From Olsenella sp. KGMB02461 (GTDB taxonomy: Bacteria; Actinomycetota; Coriobacteriia; Coriobacteriales; Atopobiaceae), in contig NZ_JABAHI010000008.1 in NCBI RefSeq assembly GCF_012584445.1, forward strand, positions 806,001 to 870,000: a DNA stretch of 64,000 nucleotides, given 5' to 3'. Of the stretch, positions 3,241 through 19,605 are shown piece by piece. Both the position numbers and the translations under genes were made by a program. How positions within the stretch are numbered: position 1 is the first letter of the stretch; each line of letters starts with the position of its first letter. The notes under the pieces were generated by a model. The model saw nothing but the letters and a program-made list of their open reading frames with translations, was not told where the DNA came from and did no database searches.

Positions 3241-4332
3241 CTATCGATTATCTATAAATTTTTTAATGTGTGATTTGAGCCCCGATAATCCTCCCCTATT
3301 ACGGAATTGGAAAAGAGATTCGTTTATTAGGTACTGTGTCCTGCGTGGATTGGGTAGTAAAAGTTGATTACTTCCCGTAACTTTTTGATAGAACCGTTTA
3401 CGCCTATCGCGTAGTTTAGGGTGCCAATAGACGATCTCTGGATTCATTAGACTGAATATTTGCTTTATTTTTTTACTTACAAGAAGATTATCCGGTCCAT
3501 ATTCACGAATTGCATTATCCGCATAATTGAAACCTCGTAGATAATGAGCTTCAAGAATCGGCCGATTTGCAACGCCAGCTTTTTCAAGTATGGCAAGCAT
3601 AGTCATCCAGCGATCAAATGGCATTGTCATGGCTTCAGAATTCTTGCTCACCTTCTTTTTAGGAAGTTCACAGCGATAGTTATAGAATGCCTTATCCAAA
3701 TAAACAATCGTCCGGGCTTCAGCCAGTGACTCTATCAAAAAAGGATTATCTGCCCAACCAGCACCTGGATAGGGAATAAACCGTATATCTCGACTATTGA
3801 GAAAAACTCGGTTATAGAGCGCAGACCAGATAGAAGGATGTCCTTCTATTAATAGGGGTTTCTCGGCCAATGTAAAGGGCCATTTAGAAGTGGGTAAACG
3901 CCCGGCTAGCGTACAAAGAGTTCGATGAGCTGTACGCGGATTATCCCAGTCATACCAGTCAAACCAAGGGGTTTTAACTACATCGATTGTTACGTCAAAA
4001 GAGCTAGCAAACTGAATCATAGCGCGATACATATCACGATCTATCCAGTCATCGGGCTCTATGATAGAGACCCAGGGTGCACGCGCCTCGTTTAGTCCTC
4101 TATTACAAGTTGCACCATAGCCTTCATTGGTCTTTGAGATCACACGTATACGTGGGTCTTTTACAGCCCATTGTTCTAGGATGGCTAACGAGTTATCGGT
4201 GCTGCCGTCATCTATAGCAAGTATTTCTAGTTCTGAGAGAGTTTGAGTACATATACTCTCCAGGCATTGGTCTAAGTATTTTTCAACATTACATACTGGA
4301 ATAATTACGCTTACTACTGGACTGGAAGCCAT
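3241..4332 (-). CDS. Family 2 glycosyltransferase
   Basis: 363 residues with one GT-A domain at the N-terminus: VSVIIPVCNVEKYL, DDGSTDNS, and EPDD as the probable DXD-type metal site, followed by about 250 residues with no recognised domain. The N-terminal half closely resembles the first domain of the 912-residue enzyme at 306-3044, suggesting duplication within the cluster. ATG at 4332 has AAAGG 9 bases upstream. It is probably co-transcribed with the downstream GT2 genes, although about 200 bases of AT-rich spacer separate it from the next. Likely role: transfer of a sugar to a cell-surface glycan on the cytoplasmic face of the membrane; substrate unknown. Confidence 0.88.
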   Translation of the reverse strand: MASSPVVSVIIPVCNVEKYLDQCLESICTQTLSELEILAIDDGSTDNSLAILEQWAVKDPRIRVISKTNEGYGATCNRGLNEARAPWVSIIEPDDWIDRDMYRAMIQFASSFDVTIDVVKTPWFDWYDWDNPRTAHRTLCTLAGRLPTSKWPFTLAEKPLLIEGHPSIWSALYNRVFLNSRDIRFIPYPGAGWADNPFLIESLAEARTIVYLDKAFYNYRCELPKKKVSKNSEAMTMPFDRWMTMLAILEKAGVANRPILEAHYLRGFNYADNAIREYGPDNLLVSKKIKQIFSLMNPEIVYWHPKLRDRRKRFYQKVTGSNQLLLPNPRRTQYLINESLFQFRNRGGLSGLKSHIKKFIDNR

Positions 4333-11337: not shown

Positions 11338-11469
11338 CTCGTTATTAGAGCCGTTTTTGCATGGTTTTGCCTAAGGGGCAGCAGGATATTGGTGCCTTCT
11401 CGTTATTAGTGCGTCTAGTTGCGCTGGGGTTTTACAAAACCCCAGCGCAGAAATCGCGATAATAACAAG
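11338..11469. repeat. 132-bp tripartite palindromic element, copy 1
   Basis: It begins with CTCGTTATTAG (11338); a second direct CTCGTTATTAG starts exactly 61 bases later (11399). A palindrome at 11420-11449 (TGCGCTGGGGTTTT, AC, then the inverse complement) follows, and an inverted TAATAAC closes the element at 11460-11469. The first half also has TTGCATGGTTTT, a partial match to one arm of the palindrome, so the element is built from three related half-sites, two direct and one inverted. The last 74 bases match copy 2 except at one position. Confidence 0.9.
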
Positions 11470-11598
11470 CCGAGAACGCAGAAGCGGAGCTACAGACCAG
11501 CCTAACGCGATGAAACGCGAGCTAGTACTTATTTTCGACTGAGACTGTTGGCCTCTGAGCGTGCATGATTTATACATATGTTGCACAATTTATTCTAA

Positions 11599-11640
11599 TT
11601 TGACAGAAATCGGTCAGACTTTTGTCAAAATATGGTCAGA
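11599..11640 (+). promoter_or_regulatory. Repeat-rich regulatory region upstream of the nuclease-like gene
   Basis: Two GGTCAGA direct repeats (11612-11618 and 11634-11640) are spaced 22 bases, about two helical turns. An inverted pair TTTGACA / TGTCAAA lies at 11599-11605 and 11623-11629. TTGACA at 11600 could also serve as a -35 box, but no convincing -10 is seen. The arrangement, 54-95 bases before the start codon, suggests an autoregulatory or promoter site; no binding protein is known. Confidence 0.4.
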
Positions 11641-11693
11641 AGACCTCAAAATTGTCTCTTTATTACACTTGCCTTCAGACTACGCTCTAGTCT

Positions 11694-12722
11694 ATGAACG
11701 CGATTGTATGTGACATTGTCGCATGGATGTACTTTGCATCCCAGCTGCCTGCGACGCCTTTAAATGCAGCTCAAGCCCAAGAGCGCCTCTCTAGGGCTAT
11801 CGCTACTGCTGGAGCTGCAAAGTCTATTCGCTCCCTGCCCTGGTGGAAGTCTTTCTCGGCATTGGGACATAGCTTAATAGCAGCCCCTTCCAGCCAAGAG
11901 ATACCTATGCATCTCTTGGTAACTCCCAAGCATTTCCATGGAGCACAAAAAGGCATCGTATTACATACCATCTCTGGACCATTGCCAGATGGCTTTCTAT
12001 TTGATATCCACGCACCAAAACCGCTGGATTCTCTGCAAATAGTGGGACCCGCAGGATACGTGATCTTGAGATCGCGCCATCTAGATATGATTGATCTTGC
12101 AGTGTTGATATCAACTCTCTGCGGTGACTACCTATGCGCACCGCATCAGAACTCGATAAAATACCTGGCATCACCCCTGTGCACTGTGGAAGTCATCAAA
12201 GCTATAGCAGATAGGATGCCAGCACAAACCCGAGGTGTTTCGACAGTGAAAGATGTGCTCCCCTATGTTGCAAGTAGGGCGCATTCACCAATGGAAACTG
12301 TCATTCAACTAGCACTATGCCTGCCTAAAAAGTTAGGAGGCTGCGGGCTGCCACTTCCCTCCCTCAATACCCCTATAGAGATCAGCGAAGAACACTCTTA
12401 TATTTTGAATGGTTCTAAACATATAATCCCTGATGGCCTCTGGTTAAATAAACAAATTTGCTATGAGTACGACAGTTATCAAGAACACGACACTCAAGAA
12501 TCCCAGATAGAGAGGGATCGAAGGCGCCGCGACGTAATGGAGCGCCTGGGTTTTCAGATGGTGGTTATCGACAGAAGCGTTTGTCGCGATGAGTTATTGC
12601 GCAATCTCACTTTTGAGCGGCTCTCATCTATGTTAGGCGTATCTTTTGATTGGAGTAGCGAAGCCCAACGTCGACGCCGTAAGTTATGGGCTTTCCTGAG
12701 AACTAACCACCTGTGTTGGTAG
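11694..12722 (+). CDS. Predicted PD-(D/E)XK-like protein, AbiEi/DUF559-type
   Basis: 342 residues, lower in GC than its neighbours. The C-terminal 110 residues read like a Vsr/DUF559-type PD-(D/E)XK fold: IIPDGLWLNKQICYEYDS supplies D and E positions, followed by QEH, ERDRRRRD and LGFQMVVID as the usual helix and core strand. The N-terminal two-thirds (pairs of Trp, a LVTPKHFHG segment, a helical middle) resemble the AbiEi-like antitoxin/regulator plus nuclease architecture common in actinobacteria. It could be a DNA-binding regulator, a toxin-antitoxin component or a nuclease. No partner gene is adjacent. The gene stands alone between copies 1 and 2 of the 132-bp element, suggesting acquisition as a cassette. 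Confidence 0.6.
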   Translation: MNAIVCDIVAWMYFASQLPATPLNAAQAQERLSRAIATAGAAKSIRSLPWWKSFSALGHSLIAAPSSQEIPMHLLVTPKHFHGAQKGIVLHTISGPLPDGFLFDIHAPKPLDSLQIVGPAGYVILRSRHLDMIDLAVLISTLCGDYLCAPHQNSIKYLASPLCTVEVIKAIADRMPAQTRGVSTVKDVLPYVASRAHSPMETVIQLALCLPKKLGGCGLPLPSLNTPIEISEEHSYILNGSKHIIPDGLWLNKQICYEYDSYQEHDTQESQIERDRRRRDVMERLGFQMVVIDRSVCRDELLRNLTFERLSSMLGVSFDWSSEAQRRRRKLWAFLRTNHLCW

Positions 12723-12842
12723 AGGTCCACATACTACAGCTCTTATGCGACACTTCTTGGATGGCTGACGGCTCCTCGCCATCGGTGGTTCATCAAGCTT
12801 TGCCCAATATCTTTGTGTAGAGGCGGCCTTCTCTTTGCCAAT

Positions 12843-12974
12843 CTCGTTATTAGAGCCGTTTTTGCATGGTTTTGCCAAAATGGCTCTCGAATGCTGGCGC
12901 CTTCTCGTTATTAGTGCGTCTAGTTGCGCTGGGGTTTTACAAAACCCCAGCGCAGAAATCGCGATAATAACGAG
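12843..12974. repeat. 132-bp tripartite palindromic element, copy 2
   Basis: Same layout and orientation as copy 1: CTCGTTATTAG at 12843 and again at 12904 (61 bases apart), a palindrome with 14-base arms at 12925-12954, and inverted TAATAACGAG at 12965-12974. Here the outer repeat CTCGTTATTA/TAATAACGAG is perfect. Only about 27 bases in the middle of the first half (roughly 12877-12903) differ freely from copy 1. Confidence 0.9.
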
Positions 12975-13000
12975 CCGGCTGCCTAAGCAGCATGCCGGCT
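12973..13000. other. Short hairpin abutting repeat copy 2
   Basis: AGCCGGC (12973-12979) and GCCGGCT (12994-13000) are inverse complements with TGC/GCA inside. There is no T-run. It overlaps the right edge of copy 2 and could form after transcription of the nuclease-like gene; function unknown. The rest of 12979-13119 shows nothing convincing. Confidence 0.35.
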
Positions 13001-13119
13001 GTCAAAGCGACCAGTCAATGTCACATGGCAGCCTTATTTCTCAACGCCCACTACTCCCACATTCTCTGCGTTCCCTCAAACACTGTGGAACAAAGGAAAG
13101 CCCAGCATGTGCTCTGCAT

Positions 13120-13157
13120 AAAAGCCCTCTTGGCCCGCAAGGGTCAAGAGGGCTTTT
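13120..13157. terminator. Bidirectional intrinsic terminator
   Basis: A perfect 13-bp stem, AAAAGCCCTCTTG (13120-13132) and CAAGAGGGCTTTT (13145-13157), with a 12-base loop. T-runs follow on both strands. It lies about 70 bases past the stop of the large surface-protein gene on the minus strand and would also stop plus-strand transcription from the cassette. Confidence 0.85.
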
Positions 13158-13184
13158 AACGGTGCGAACGGTGCGAACGGTGCG
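13158..13184. repeat. Three tandem copies of AACGGTGCG
   Basis: Exact 9-base unit repeated three times immediately next to the terminator. Non-coding. Probably a slippage-prone microsatellite; no function is implied. Confidence 0.9.
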
Positions 13185-13229
13185 AGCTTAGCGTCATTTC
13201 AAGCTCGACGCCACTCCCGTCTAGGACAA

Positions 13230-16200
13230 CTAGGCGCGACGCCTGCGCAGGTAAACCAGGGTAGTGGTGGCGCCCGCAGCCAGAAGCACCAGCGCGCCCC
13301 AGAAGACGGGTTCGTCGCCCATGCGCCCCAGGCGGCCAAAGCGCCCGTTCACCGGGTACACGATGGAGGCCGCGGCGGTGGCCTTGGCCTCGATCTCGGT
13401 GGCGGCAGCGCCTTCACCGGGAGCAAGGGAGCCAGCTTCGCCCGAGCCCACCGCCGAGACGCTGTTGACGATCTTGCCAGGCATGGAAGGCTCGCGGATG
13501 GCAGCCTCATAGGTCAGGGTTACCTGTTGGCCGCCTGCCAGATCGCCCACCGGCACACGCAGGGTGTTGCTCGCGCGGTCAAACTCCACGTCGCTCATGG
13601 CCAACGGCTGCGTGGCGCCGTCGGGCAGCGTGAGCTTGAGAGAAGAAACATCCAGCTCGAGCCCGTCGCTCATGACGTCCACCAACAGCGTGTCAAAGCT
13701 CATGGACATGTCCAGAGTATTGGTCAGCTTGACGGTATAGCCCACCTTGTCACCCAGATACCACTCGTCGGTATGGGTGAGGTTCTCGGCAGCCTTTTCG
13801 AGGCTGAGCTGAGGATCGGCCCACACCACCGGATGCTCAGGGTCTTGCTCGCTGGGGAAGGCGACCTCGGATTCGGTGCCGCCGCGAGGCGCCGGGTCGG
13901 TCCAGGGGTCTCCAGGCTTCACCGTGTCATTGGGTCCTACCAGCAGGTTTGTGCCCACCGCCACATTGGGGATCATGAGGCCGTGAGCAGCCTGGGCGAC
14001 AGCTGCCTCGAAGGTGAGCTTTGCGACCTCTCCCTTCATGAGGGTGCCGCAGGTAACGCTCAAGGTGCGGGTCTCAGGGTCGTAGGCTTCAGGGGCTACC
14101 GAGAAGGGCTCGCCCTCCTTGATTTGGAGCTTGAGGGTGGAAAGGTCGATCTCGAGACCTTCGGGGAGAGTGTCGGTGATAAGGCCGTTTTCGATGGCAG
14201 AGTCATCCTTGGTGGTAGTGAGTTCGATGGTATAGGCCAGGCGGTCGCCCACGCGGGTAATGGGGGCGTCGGGGGCGGTGAGGTTCTGGGCGTCCTTGAC
14301 GATGGAGATGTCCGGCGATGCCCAGTGGACGGCGCCGTCGTCAGGAAGCACCACGTCGGTGGTGAGGCCGCCGGCAGGGCCTGCGGGGACGTCGGGGAGA
14401 TCGGGGTCGTCGGGATGATCGGGATCTTCAGGCGTGCGAGTGCCATCGGTGGTGCCCAGCACGCTGGCGCTGTTTTGCACCGGGGTGCCCAGAGGGAGGT
14501 CCTTTAAGGCGTCGGTGGTGAGCGACGCGTCAAACACCAGGGTCTTCGCCGTGCCAGGCGCCACATCGCCCAGATTGTAAGTCACGCGACGGGTGACAGC
14601 GTCATAGGCGCTGTCAGGCACCGCCAATGCAGTGCCGCCCTCCAAGTTGGCAAGATCGCGCAGGATGAGCTTCATGGTCCCCGCCTGAGGCACCACCCCT
14701 ACCGGTAGAGGATCAGAAACCGCCACGTTTTGCCAGTTGGCCAAGCGGTTGTTTTGTGCGGTGATGTAGTAGCGCACCGTGTCGCCGATGCGGTTCACGC
14801 CGCGAGGATGGGTGAGGTTGCGCAGCACCTTGGTGATAAAAGTGTCGCCTTCCTTTGTGAGATCGACGGTGGGGTCGTGCGTGGGAGTGACATTGGGCGC
14901 ACCTGGGTCGACGGGCTCGCTTTCGGGGTCGACGGGCTTGTCGGGCGAATCCGGGTCGCTGGGGTTATCGGGATCGTCCGGGTTGTCAGGGTTGTCAGGA
15001 TTATCCGGGTTGTCAGGGTTGTCAGGATCGCTGGGGTTGTCAGGGTCGCTGGGGTTGTCTGGATCTGCGGGGCCGCTGGGCGTGTTGGAAGGCGCGCCCT
15101 TGTGGGAAGAGGCGCCAAAGACGGGATAGACAGTGGTGTAACCCTGGGAGAGCACGTCGTTGGTGGTCAGGAGCACCGGGGCTTCCGGCGTAGTGGTCCA
15201 CCCCAGGAAGGAGCGGTTGTGTTTCTCGGCAAGGGAGGTGGCCCAGGCGGCAGCCTCGTTCTCATTGAGCGATTCCAACGTGGAGAGCACCTTGGAGCCC
15301 GGCTGGGTGCCGTTGTAGACGAAGGCGGCGATCCCATCGGGCAGCTCTTTGACCTTGAGGCCGGAGCCGGCGCGGGCCTTCTCGACCACCACTTTGACGG
15401 AGGCGTCGGCCTGGAGGTCGTTCAAGTCAACAGAGCCGGCGGCAAGGAGGTCGGGACGAGCCTGGCCGTTCACAAAGACGCCGGTGACGGTGAAGCCCTC
15501 CGGGACGTCCCAGGATACAGGGTAGTTTGAGCCCTTGGCTAGTGCGTTGGCGCTGGCGGTGATGGAGCCGGGGCCCTCGCTCACGATCTGAGTCTCGACG
15601 CGGCAGGTGTCTTCTTGGTGGTCCTCGGGCTTGGTAGTGATGGCATCGGCCTTCACAAAGGTGGCATGGATGGTGTGGTTGCGATCCACCTCATAGAAGG
15701 GATAGGAGCCCGTATCGTCGATGACCGCGTCAGGCTTGGGAGCCACAGGGTCCTCGCTGGCAGCGGGATCACCAGGGCCGTCGGCCAGAAGGGAGCTCAG
15801 GCGCTCGGGCGAGGCCATCTTGAGCATGGAGCGCAGCAGGCTCTGGCTTTGAGAGACGTCGGTCTCCTTGGTGGACAGGCGATCGGCCAGGGAGCGCTCG
15901 GGATAGAAGGAGCGAACCGTGTCGATGGTCACGCCCTGGAGCATCCAGCCTTCGGCGGGTTCCCAGGCTACCGGGTAGTCGCTGCCGCGCTTGACGATGG
16001 CCGAGGGCGTGATGGTCCCCTGGCCCGTCACCTGGGTGTCGATGGAGATCTGCTCCTCCTCAGACAGGGTGATGTTTCCTGCCTGATCCTTGGGCGTGAG
16101 CTTGACCTCCACCGTGCAGTCCTTGGAGCCGGCAGGCAGCTCGATAGCCACCGAACCGTCATCCTGCACCGTGATGCTCAAGGGGTTCACCTTGGCGCCG

Positions 16201-18884
16201 TCGGCGTCGGTGACGGTGATGTTTTCTTGTTTGATGTCGTAGGAAGAGGCGTACTCAGGGTCGATGGCCGCCGTCACCGTGGCGCCTTGGCCGTCAGCCA
16301 CCCGCGCGGTGGGGCTCACCGTGCCAGGGCCGCCTGTGAGGCGCGTGGCCACCTGGTGATCTCCCGCCGAGCTGGAAGTGCCTGCCGGCTTGAGCTTCAC
16401 CTCGACCTCGTGGTCGCGGTCCACCTGGGAGAAGGTGACCGACTTTGCCCCTGCTGCCACCAGGTCCGGGCGCTCCACGCCGTCGATGTAGATCATCTCC
16501 AGCTCGCGGGTGGAATCGAGCTTCCACTCCACCTTGTAGTTGGATGCCCCGCTGTCGTCGGTAGCCACGATGGTGGACTTGGTGATGGTAGAGCTGCCTG
16601 CATCGCCGGTAAGCTTGGTGGCCACCTGAGCGTAGCCTGCAGGATCTACCGGTGCCGACAAGTACTCCACCACCACATGATGACTTGCCTCCAGCGCCCC
16701 AAGGTTCAGGGTGCCTCCGGCATATCGTGCGGGGTCCAGCAGCTCGTCGTCCAGCCAGACAGCGCCGATGGAGCCGCCCTCGGCTGCCTTGAGGTTCACC
16801 GAGAGCTTGGTGCCCGCGTCATAGGTATGGGCCTGGCTGTCGATAGGCGCAGGGTCTTGGCCCTCCACCTGGATGCTGGTGGTGCCGTTGCCCTTTTGGC
16901 TCACCCTGAGATCCCAGGTCTTCACCCACTTGGCGTAGACATGGAAGGGCTCTTTGGTGTCTGCGCCAGAAGGCGGGTAGGTTCCCTCAGACACGATCTT
17001 CTCTCCAGTACCTGCGTTGTCAAGGTACCAGCCGTCAAAGCGGTACCCCTCGCGCACGGGGTCGTCGGGGTAACTGGCAATGATGTGGTTGTTGGTAAAG
17101 AGGGACTGGGCCTCGTCATCAGCGGTCGCCGGCTCGGAGGCTCCGTCTTCATTGCGATGGAAGTGAGCCCGACGTTCCAGCACCTGGATGGGCACCACCA
17201 CGTCGCCGCTCACATTGCCTGCCCAGTCCACGGCATAGACATGGGCGTAGTACTGAGTGTCCAGATTCAGGTTCTGAGCCGAGGTATAGGTCACCGTGTC
17301 GGTGCTGTTGGAGGCAGGAATGATCTGAGAGGCCATCACCTGTGACTTGGTGATGGCCACAGGATCCTTGTTTGTGTCCACTGCCCGCACATAGTAGCCG
17401 CGCAGACCAGAGAGGGCTGTCTGCACCAGGGAGGCGGTTTTATCGGCAGGAGCGTCATCGAAGGTCTCAGGATCGCTCCACACCTCCACATACTCGGGGG
17501 CGTTTTGCAGGGTTGCCTGGGGGATGCCCTGGATCTTGTAGGCAAACTGGGTGCCCGCGTCCACCGAGCCGCGCAAATTGAGCGTGGCCGAGTAGTGCCA
17601 GCCATCAGGAGTGAGATTCACTCGGCGCAGGGAGGCGTTGGCGGCAGAGGGGGCGTCCTCGTCGGCAAAAGAGAGGTCGGAGCCCGAGGTGTAGCGCGAG
17701 CCCTGGGCGATGTAGAGCAGGGTGTTGGCGAAGACCTTGCACTCGTCTTCTGTAGCCGATCCGTTGGAGTGGCCGGTCTGGATCATGGCGTTTGAGCCAT
17801 TGGTGACCAGATAGTAGTTGTCGGTGCCGTTGCCCTGCGTGAAACGGATTCCCTGCACATTGCCTGCGCCATCGCTCATCTGCATCCACACGCGAGCATT
17901 GGAGCCGGCCAGCACCCTTTGCCCCAACACATGAGTGGTGGGAATGGAAAGCGTTTTGCCGTTGAGGTCCCAGGGACGCGAGGTCAAAAAGCCCGTGTCG
18001 ATGACCTTGCAGTTGTTGAGCACATAGGTGGAGCCGCCCTGCCCGGGGAAGATATCCAGGAAATCCTCGCGGGCGAAGCGGTTGAAGTAGGGGTGGTGCA
18101 GTCGCTTGGAAGCGTTGTCGGCATAGGGATCGGAGGTAGATGAGGCCGAGCCGGTGATAGTGTCGTGGCCAAACATGAGGCCGCCGCCATGCTGGGCAAA
18201 AGCCACAGTGGCATCGCGGGAGGCAGCATTGAGGTCGCCGCCGTCGTTGGCATCGTAAGTGCCAAACATGATGACGTCGTACTTGTACTGTTGAATGTCG
18301 TTTCCTTGGGCATCCTTCACGGTTTCCATGAGATAGCCGTTGGGGTTGGCGTTGTAGTCGGCCAAGGTGATGGCCGTGATGTCCATAAGGTCGCGGCCCA
18401 CCGTCACGCGCTGGCCAGTGGTGGGATCTGTGGTAGGAGTGTTCATCCAGTTTTTGAGATAGGCCGTGGAGGCGCCGTTGGGCGCCACGTTGAGCACACG
18501 GATCTTGTTGGAATCGCTGTAGGCGCTTCTGGATTCCCAGGCGCTCCAGGCATTGGAGCTGGTAGCCTTCTTCGACTGCCAGATGATGTATTTGTAGGGA
18601 CGGCCAGGGTCTGCAATGCCCTCGCCCGGACGCAGCGGATTCTCAAAGGGGAAGGTCCACTTGAGGTCTTGGACCAGTTGCTTGTCCGAAGCCACGGTCA
18701 CCTTGCCCGAAACCTTGATGTGGCCTTCTTTAAACTGAAGGTCATCGCTGTCCACCTGCGCAGAGACGCTTCTGGCGCCATTCTCCGCCAACGCCGGCTG
18801 CGGCGCCACAGGCACCAGAGTGAGCGCCATCACAAAGGAGAGCAGCCAGGCAAAGATCTTCGTCGCCAGTCCCTTGCGTTTCAT
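13230..18884 (-). CDS. Large DUF5057/DUF11 cell-surface protein
   Basis: 1,884 residues. Residues 1-33 are a Sec signal peptide (KRKG, long hydrophobic core, ALAEN cleavage region). Residues 40-430 resemble DUF5057 (VIMFGTYDANDGG, GGGLMFGHDT). An InlB/Listeria-Bacteroides B-repeat lies near 566-656 (REGYRFDGWY). Several beta-sandwich repeats follow (VTGVFVNGQARPDLLAAG type), then an Asp-Pro-Asn stalk (about 1261-1331) and three DUF11-like adhesin repeats starting near 1333, 1520 and 1690. The C-terminus has a membrane helix and RRRRA. The expected LPXTG is replaced by LGRMGDE, so sortase anchoring is uncertain. Likely an adhesin projecting through the cell wall; ligand unknown. GGGGGT precedes the ATG by 5 bases. 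Confidence 0.9.
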   Translation of the reverse strand: MKRKGLATKIFAWLLSFVMALTLVPVAPQPALAENGARSVSAQVDSDDLQFKEGHIKVSGKVTVASDKQLVQDLKWTFPFENPLRPGEGIADPGRPYKYIIWQSKKATSSNAWSAWESRSAYSDSNKIRVLNVAPNGASTAYLKNWMNTPTTDPTTGQRVTVGRDLMDITAITLADYNANPNGYLMETVKDAQGNDIQQYKYDVIMFGTYDANDGGDLNAASRDATVAFAQHGGGLMFGHDTITGSASSTSDPYADNASKRLHHPYFNRFAREDFLDIFPGQGGSTYVLNNCKVIDTGFLTSRPWDLNGKTLSIPTTHVLGQRVLAGSNARVWMQMSDGAGNVQGIRFTQGNGTDNYYLVTNGSNAMIQTGHSNGSATEDECKVFANTLLYIAQGSRYTSGSDLSFADEDAPSAANASLRRVNLTPDGWHYSATLNLRGSVDAGTQFAYKIQGIPQATLQNAPEYVEVWSDPETFDDAPADKTASLVQTALSGLRGYYVRAVDTNKDPVAITKSQVMASQIIPASNSTDTVTYTSAQNLNLDTQYYAHVYAVDWAGNVSGDVVVPIQVLERRAHFHRNEDGASEPATADDEAQSLFTNNHIIASYPDDPVREGYRFDGWYLDNAGTGEKIVSEGTYPPSGADTKEPFHVYAKWVKTWDLRVSQKGNGTTSIQVEGQDPAPIDSQAHTYDAGTKLSVNLKAAEGGSIGAVWLDDELLDPARYAGGTLNLGALEASHHVVVEYLSAPVDPAGYAQVATKLTGDAGSSTITKSTIVATDDSGASNYKVEWKLDSTRELEMIYIDGVERPDLVAAGAKSVTFSQVDRDHEVEVKLKPAGTSSSAGDHQVATRLTGGPGTVSPTARVADGQGATVTAAIDPEYASSYDIKQENITVTDADGAKVNPLSITVQDDGSVAIELPAGSKDCTVEVKLTPKDQAGNITLSEEEQISIDTQVTGQGTITPSAIVKRGSDYPVAWEPAEGWMLQGVTIDTVRSFYPERSLADRLSTKETDVSQSQSLLRSMLKMASPERLSSLLADGPGDPAASEDPVAPKPDAVIDDTGSYPFYEVDRNHTIHATFVKADAITTKPEDHQEDTCRVETQIVSEGPGSITASANALAKGSNYPVSWDVPEGFTVTGVFVNGQARPDLLAAGSVDLNDLQADASVKVVVEKARAGSGLKVKELPDGIAAFVYNGTQPGSKVLSTLESLNENEAAAWATSLAEKHNRSFLGWTTTPEAPVLLTTNDVLSQGYTTVYPVFGASSHKGAPSNTPSGPADPDNPSDPDNPSDPDNPDNPDNPDNPDNPDDPDNPSDPDSPDKPVDPESEPVDPGAPNVTPTHDPTVDLTKEGDTFITKVLRNLTHPRGVNRIGDTVRYYITAQNNRLANWQNVAVSDPLPVGVVPQAGTMKLILRDLANLEGGTALAVPDSAYDAVTRRVTYNLGDVAPGTAKTLVFDASLTTDALKDLPLGTPVQNSASVLGTTDGTRTPEDPDHPDDPDLPDVPAGPAGGLTTDVVLPDDGAVHWASPDISIVKDAQNLTAPDAPITRVGDRLAYTIELTTTKDDSAIENGLITDTLPEGLEIDLSTLKLQIKEGEPFSVAPEAYDPETRTLSVTCGTLMKGEVAKLTFEAAVAQAAHGLMIPNVAVGTNLLVGPNDTVKPGDPWTDPAPRGGTESEVAFPSEQDPEHPVVWADPQLSLEKAAENLTHTDEWYLGDKVGYTVKLTNTLDMSMSFDTLLVDVMSDGLELDVSSLKLTLPDGATQPLAMSDVEFDRASNTLRVPVGDLAGGQQVTLTYEAAIREPSMPGKIVNSVSAVGSGEAGSLAPGEGAAATEIEAKATAAASIVYPVNGRFGRLGRMGDEPVFWGALVLLAAGATTTLVYLRRRRA
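14949..15069 (-). repeat. Asp-Pro-Asn tandem repeat in the surface protein
   Basis: Degenerate 9- and 18-base units (GTTGTCAGG and variants on the plus strand) encode runs of DNP, DNPS and DDP in the stalk of the 1,884-residue protein. Such tracts act as rigid spacers and vary in length by slippage. Confidence 0.85.
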
Positions 18885-18908
18885 TTCTACCCCCGTAGAT
18901 GTATATAG

Positions 18909-19364
18909 CCCGTTTATAGCTGCGTTTCAGCATACTTATGCCTTAATATATGGCTATCGATATCTTTGGGGCAATAATTAAACTTCGCACTATTGCGCGA
19001 CATTTTCTTTTTGCGACGGTTGAGCCTAGCGGCTTTGCTGGTCTAAAGCATGATTATTCCACGTTTACCTTGTGATGTATCAAGATTCTTTAGGGGCGTC
19101 TTGGCTTTCGACTGGTCCTGGCACACCTGCTTTTCAAGTAGCTCCCTTGGACATTAGGACACTGTTTGCCAGTCTTCATTCAGAGAATCATGAAATTGGA
19201 TTTCATCATATAATGAATTTTATGACGTATTATTGTGACACCAGTTACGTATATTTTTCCTAAATTGTATAGTTATTTAGTATATAGGGCCAATGGTGGC
19301 CTTTTTGGTACCTGCACCGCTTTTTGAAAAGCTTCCCCACGTGCTTGCCGCAGGTCTTTCTGCG
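18909..19364. other. AT-rich intergenic region with no supported gene
   Basis: This stretch upstream of the surface-protein gene is much lower in GC than the flanks. A 63-codon reading frame at 19072-19263 lacks a ribosome-binding site and recognisable sequence. Likely promoter elements for the minus-strand surface gene lie near its left end (TATATA at about 18903), but no full promoter can be fixed. Confidence 0.5.
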
Positions 19365-19404
19365 GAGTCACTTGCTCACAAAGCGAGTCACTTGCTCACA
19401 GCAC
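19365..19404. repeat. 20-bp tandem direct repeat
   Basis: GAGTCACTTGCTCACA occurs at 19365-19380 and again at 19385-19400, a 20-base period, about 70 bases before element copy 3. Non-coding. Confidence 0.85.
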
Positions 19405-19472
19405 TGATAAGCATGCTGGATCCTCAGCCACCACCTCACTGTGGCCGCTCGCAGCCTCGTTCGCCCATGATT

Positions 19473-19605
19473 CTCGTTATTAGAGCCTCTCTTGCATGGT
19501 TTTAGCCCGAAAAACAACGCGTAACATGAGTTTCTCGTTATTACCACCCTCGACTGCACTGGGGTTTTATAAAACCCCAGTGCACCTAACTCCACTAATA
19601 ACGAA
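19473..19605. repeat. Tripartite palindromic element, copy 3 (diverged)
   Basis: CTCGTTATTAG at 19473 and CTCGTTATTA at 19534, again exactly 61 bases apart. A perfect 30-base palindrome lies at 19555-19584 (TGCACTGGGGTTTTA and its complement), with inverted TAATAACGA at 19596. Compared with copies 1 and 2, one arm base changed G to A and its partner C to T, so the palindrome is preserved, while the linkers on both sides have diverged. Total 133 bases. Confidence 0.9.

Follow-up and report, generated by a model that had tools for sequence, protein, structure and literature searches.

The 64,000-nucleotide stretch of DNA analysed here (the window), from Olsenella sp. KGMB02461, carries three copies of a palindromic arrangement with fixed internal spacing, and the question it raises is what kind of element this is and what maintains it. 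The first-pass annotation described the copies and left unremarked the gene for a 342-aa protein between two of them, on which an understanding of the element turns. The features concerned are the following.

11338-11469: copy 1, on the left flank of the 342-aa gene; direct boxes 11338-11347 and 11399-11408, core palindrome 11420-11449, inverted box 11460-11469 (TAATAACAAG)
11470-12842 (+ strand): DNA between copies 1 and 2, GC ~47% against ~64% around; absent from the sister species (G001)
11694-12722 (+ strand): gene for the 342-aa protein, a variable N-terminal region followed by a predicted C-terminal Vsr/DUF559/I-Bth0305I-like nuclease domain
12843-12974: copy 2, on the right flank of the 342-aa gene; boxes 12843-12852, 12904-12913 and 12965-12974 (inverted), core palindrome 12925-12954
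19473-19605: copy 3, a dispersed array between TatD-like and adhesin-like genes, with a G001 array at the equivalent place; boxes 19473-19482, 19534-19543 and 19596-19605 (inverted), core palindrome 19555-19584

All three copies lie, exact to the base, where they had been annotated, and comparison of the window sequence with its shuffles puts them far beyond chance. The box CTCGTTATTA, with at most one mismatch, has 12 matches in the window, and 100 shuffles of it average 0.80 and never exceed 4; TTGCATGGTTTT by itself, with 8 matches where 3.9 are expected, is weak evidence. The internal geometry also proved to be as first described, with a 61-base start-to-start spacing of the direct CTCGTTATTA boxes, a 30-base palindrome that starts 21 bases past the start of the second box, and an inverted box that closes the array, each in three of three copies. 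The tripartite layout of two direct boxes plus one inverted box holds for the window copies, but it is only one of several in the genome, where other arrays have an extra box on the opposite side, one box more, or arm boxes of another kind around the same core. Between copies 1 and 2 identity reaches 90.9%; copy 3, at 64-66% identity to either, retains mainly the boxes, the core and the spacing. Just upstream of copy 3, at 19371-19402, are two CTTGCTCAC boxes 20 bp apart that are conserved in G001; at C12:1480144 (L065), CTTGCTCAC is found again, around a core whose arm is different, and these boxes probably represent another box family. The minus strand between copies 2 and 3 (13230-18884) encodes a secreted adhesin-like protein of 1884 aa, in which DUF11 and Listeria-Bacteroides repeat domains are recognised.

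The gene between copies 1 and 2 has a GC content of 48%, against 65% in its surroundings. Its product belongs to no family above cut-off in NCBIfam, PADLOC or Pfam, and the insert between the two copies contains no transposase. At this place G001 has one array and no gene, with the left linker of copy 1 and the right flank of copy 2. As a correction to the first-pass annotation, copies 1 and 2 are not independent of each other: they flank a single gene, which the sister species lacks. Judged by sequence, the present state may have arisen either by entry of a cassette through recombination between arrays or by loss of the gene in G001 through such recombination between two flanking arrays. The shared spacers do not decide; because flanked genes are widespread, loss in G001 is at least as likely.

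The search for further copies proposed in the first-pass annotation recovered them elsewhere in the window genome (G000, 2.19 Mb) and in G001. By BLAST and pattern searches, G000 has 14 cores matching CTGGGGTTTTNNAAAACCCCAG with at most three mismatches, and none matching a reversed control pattern; G001 has 11, found with a shorter core and at most one mismatch. The core has no match in the 138 other genomes of the bacterial family (140 in the set), and the exact core pattern has none in a wider contig collection that may leave out records close to the window genome. The looser pattern CTCGTTATTA...TGCRNTGG gave 66 single matches in viral contigs, which were taken as chance. Eight fetched locus pairs, together with the window loci, are syntenic between G000 and G001, so that most arrays have been inherited in place. 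The arrays are extragenic and arranged as inverted pairs, and the gene map places several of them between convergent genes or at gene 3′ ends, not upstream. Their arm boxes vary among cores, with CGTTATTA in most, GCGATGTAG or close variants in L059, L062 and L071, CTGCCAATCTG in L064, and a CTTGCTCAC-like box in L065. At one locus pair (L060/L076), about 100 bp to the right of the core, the two species agree through the array and its outermost box and then diverge for the rest of the fetched ~4 kb, which points to a larger gain or loss that ends at the array.

Genes of the same family as the 342-aa gene number seven in G000 and seven in G001; sequence identity and common flanks make six of them orthologues, and related genes occur in 132 of the 140 genomes of the bacterial family. 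In a phylum sample, strong matches are confined to the same order, with weak and mostly C-terminal matches elsewhere. A search of contigs with a five-row alignment added 12 distant loci, and the named relatives are from Atopobiaceae, Olsenella and Eggerthellaceae. The GC content of the genes differs from that of their surroundings by a median of -1.7 points and is lower in 21 of 29 cases; because it is not uniformly low, foreign origin is suggested for some family genes only.

An AlphaFold2 model of the 342-aa protein has a mean pLDDT of 74, with most of the C-terminal domain above 90 and residues 19-70 below 50. In VIA-align comparisons, residues 198-316 align with the homing endonuclease I-Bth0305I (3r3p; Z 10.2, rmsd 2.9, 97 aligned), and the same domain aligns with the DUF559 protein 3hrl (Z 9.0) and with Vsr (1cw0; Z 8.3). 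A better-modelled relative (mean pLDDT 84) ranks the structural matches similarly, at lower Z; taken alone, the Foldseek E-values for this fold fall short of significance. Residues E201, D247, E258-Y-D260 and H265 are invariant or nearly so across the gene family, distant paralogues included. These are residues of an active-site type, and the C-terminal domain is predicted to be nuclease-like. The best sequence relatives of this domain are DUF559 and REase_MTES_1575 (PF04480, PF18741), with an E-value of 8.9e-8 for L140 against PF18741, every match to the two models falling under the curated cut-off; the literature searched yielded no repeat partner for either family. The N-terminal residues 1-193 match the AbiEi antitoxin (6y8q, Z 5.3) and Rv2827c (1zel, Z 5.1) weakly.

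Many paralogues are adjoined by palindromic boxes of their own that differ from one gene to the next, and most of the seven genes in G000 have a recognisable set. When the same 9-mer is required on each side of a gene, with at least four occurrences in total, an identical box is found on both flanks of 23 of 56 genes, the window gene included, against 79 of 3068 mismatched flank pairs (2.6%). The binomial p-value of this comparison (4e-22) overstates its strength, since orthologues are not independent genes. An earlier both-sides comparison with random genes had given a moderate result (p 0.0026), raw shared k-mers not being significant (p 0.21), and the null was then changed from random genes to mismatched flank pairs. 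Arrays of matching boxes on both gene sides occur at L083 (the window), L090, L091/L092, L127, L140 and L141. The remaining 33 genes are below the both-sides threshold, and in L086/L087 and others the boxes are one-sided or weak. L090, with its gene in G001 only, is a possible second case of gene absence; the G000 contig ends at that place. Box clusters are also present in randomly chosen control regions (L149, L154, L155 and L160, in G019, G023 and G007). As random stretches hold repeated boxes, arrays are probably common in these three genomes; an array near a gene is therefore weak evidence by itself, and it is the same box on both sides that discriminates.

The pairing extends to comparisons among proteins. 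Pairs of genes with at least 45% N-terminal identity share repeated boxes in 15 of 48 cases, against 12 of 1605 other pairs, a difference owed in part to common descent. Across genera, L090 (G001) and L126 (G019) have N-termini that are 65% identical, and GCTCACTGA boxes lie on both sides of each. Co-change of the N-terminal region with the boxes is seen in one orthologue pair, L093/L094, whose identity is 30-50% at residues ~20-100 and 75-98% beyond. The main boxes of these two genes differ (TAGGAGGT vs GCCGGAAAGTGC), and two boxes of the other type persist at L093. In none of the remaining five orthologue pairs does identity drop comparably within the protein, and their boxes are common to both members.

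The core itself is conserved as a palindrome. Over 20 pairs and 23 distinct copies, its covariation score is 0.176 against 0.111 +/- 0.015 in shuffles, none of 500 reaching the observed value; 43 palindrome cells are changed on both sides, against 25, and slide controls agree. Because a palindrome is symmetric in DNA too, this covariation indicates dyad symmetry and not RNA as such. Spacing is constrained as well. In the window family the boxes are 59-61 bp apart, and same-strand spacings are mostly 61 bp; in a G019 box family same-strand spacings are 31/32 or 63 bp, and opposite-strand spacings are mainly 23, 53 and 84 bp. A period fit over 15 box families, using one spacing per family and scanning the period in the null too, gives 10.25 bp (p = 0.0002), which matches what proteins bound on one face of the DNA would need. 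At L140 (G007), 14 GACTTGTGCG boxes exactly 31 bp apart (1662-2065) lie upstream of the family gene and six more (3335-3521) downstream of it, as a phased tandem array.

Arrays and genes also turn over in other genera. In G019, the interval between the orthologous DUF1015 and TatD genes holds an array of similar layout, direct and inverted, built from a different box, CACCTGAACGCGGTTGAGG, which has 119 matches across the 2.1-Mb genome against one for the reversed control. The cognate gene of this abundant box was not found among six fetched genes. A second G019 variant, CGCCTGAAAGCGRTTGAGG, accompanies the CACCTGAACGC family and is arranged as compact inverted pairs at a 23-bp spacing. In genus g33 (L277-L306), 6 of 30 genomes carry a family gene upstream of an aroA-like one; at the same place G102 (L290) has an array without the gene, and the inspected others have neither. 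The locus thus has three allele states: empty, array only, and array-gene-array. Within a genome the flanking arrays share 87-98% identity in their best local alignments (52 to 127 bases), against 80-86% between species, which indicates that the two flanking arrays evolve in concert.

Together, we consider it somewhat more probable than otherwise that the copies are dispersed arrays that serve as cognate sites of a dedicated nuclease-like protein and form a repeat family maintained by it. The system is apparently undescribed in coriobacteria and looks like a set of mobile or selfish repeats that rewire their DNA specificity. The first-pass annotation had suggested a bound or folded structure; its reading as a bound site array of a non-autonomous repeat fits the further copies, the compensatory changes in the palindrome, the helical phasing and the nuclease-like genes with cognate arrays, and the RNA part of the suggestion is not borne out. 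What the sequence itself shows is that genes and box families are paired, that many genes have matching boxes on either side, that the palindrome is dyad-symmetric with compensatory change, that boxes are helically phased, that arrays and genes are gained or lost at fixed places, and that the two flanking arrays evolve in concert; binding, cutting and the mode of spread are inferred. The variable N-terminal region would read the boxes, and several molecules would bind along the same face of the DNA and come together at the palindrome in the middle. The Vsr-like C-terminal domain may then nick or cut at the arrays, and repair may copy or exchange array DNA between sites, the gene being gained or lost through recombination between arrays. 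By structural analogy with I-Bth0305I, one could guess that a dimer spans the inverted box pair, 59-61 bp apart.

An RNA role, in which the arrays would act as a terminator, attenuator or mRNA-stabilising hairpin and the link to the gene would be incidental, could draw on a strong predicted hairpin of -31 to -42 kcal/mol for 71-72 nt, on the compensatory changes and on the location of several arrays at the ends of genes. The stem is not followed by a T-run, however, and the best Rfam matches for the array are far under gathering scores; phasing and dyad symmetry point to DNA, and RNA gives no reason for phasing across many unrelated box sequences or for co-change with a protein region. We regard this role as very improbable. 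It is scarcely credible that the arrays derive from a known insertion sequence, as its ends or remnants, or that they are RAYT-type REPs or an ordinary MITE, even though they are small, inverted in structure and dispersed between genes. No known IS end was found to explain the copies, an explanation that the first-pass annotation had named as one that would refute its reading, and the arrays differ among gene paralogues and are not the two ends of one element. The RAYT transposase domain Y1_Tnp (PF01797) has no match in G000 or G001, although PF01797 does pick up members in 9 of 25 relatives and in 5 control genomes.

If the family consisted of AbiEi-like transcription regulators, the arrays would be operators for autoregulation and a small regulon, and the nuclease fold would be inactive or secondary. 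AbiEi antitoxins have an N-terminal winged HTH and a C-terminal antitoxin domain, with the AbiEii toxin adjacent; the N-terminal region of the window protein has its weak structural similarity to these type IV toxin-antitoxin regulators, fused here to a nuclease-type domain, and no toxin gene was noticed adjoining the window gene. AbiEi and Rv2827c bind inverted repeat sets in their own promoter (PMC7319586), and helical phasing suits bound regulators. Against operators stand the arrays between convergent genes or at 3′ ends, the boxes on both gene sides and elsewhere, a box with more than a hundred matches in one genome, the coming and going of arrays and genes at fixed places, and the retention of active-site-type residues across distant paralogues, so we take regulation as the main function to be unlikely. 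Homing is a quite unlikely explanation, under which the gene would cut gene-free arrays and be copied in by repair, the dispersed arrays being passive targets. In homing, the gene inserts within its recognition site and, by dividing it, protects filled sites; here the array on either side of the gene is full or nearly so, and six of the seven genes are orthologous in both species. Many arrays can belong to a box family that has a single gene, which means that arrays rather than genes multiply. In favour of homing, the top structural match of the catalytic domain is a homing endonuclease, gene-free and gene-bearing arrays occupy one place, and the window gene is low in GC. For I-Bth0305I, dimer formation on a target of nearly 60 bp has been reported (PMC3943268), a length comparable to the box spacing in the window. 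The EDxHD/Vsr-like homing endonucleases (PMC3943268) resemble the present family in catalytic fold and in presence or absence of the gene at a fixed place, and differ from it in that complete or nearly complete arrays flank the gene here and cognate arrays are dispersed genome-wide.

For the arrays as cognate sites of a nuclease-like protein, the closest comparison in organisation is the REPIN-RAYT system (PMC3116915), which likewise has short palindromes in inverted pairs between genes, several families per genome, a gene flanked by cognate repeats and mostly vertical inheritance. The RAYT protein, however, is a Y1 HUH transposase and the fold found here is the unrelated Vsr/PD-(D/E)XK type, and the boxes here stand in phased arrays of several direct and inverted copies. 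By this analogy, the system would in effect have reached the organisation of REPIN-RAYT independently, with a PD-(D/E)XK-type nuclease taking the place of the HUH transposase. The chances are about even that it represents a selfish or domesticated class in which multi-copy Vsr-like nuclease genes each have a private phased repeat family, the N-terminus switches specificity and the repeats follow, with several lineages per genome. No report of such gene-repeat pairing was found in the literature searched, which mostly did not reach subscription journals.

The origin and persistence of dispersed bacterial palindromes is a long-standing question, for which REPIN-RAYT is the main worked example. 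If the present reading is true, gene-plus-repeat partnerships would have arisen more than once, and the coriobacterial system would offer a comparison for testing how repeats spread. The aroA-like locus of genus g33 is a ready-made set for dating gain and loss. Co-change of the protein region and its boxes would, in turn, amount to a natural library of DNA specificities, with seven genes in the window genome and hundreds across the family.
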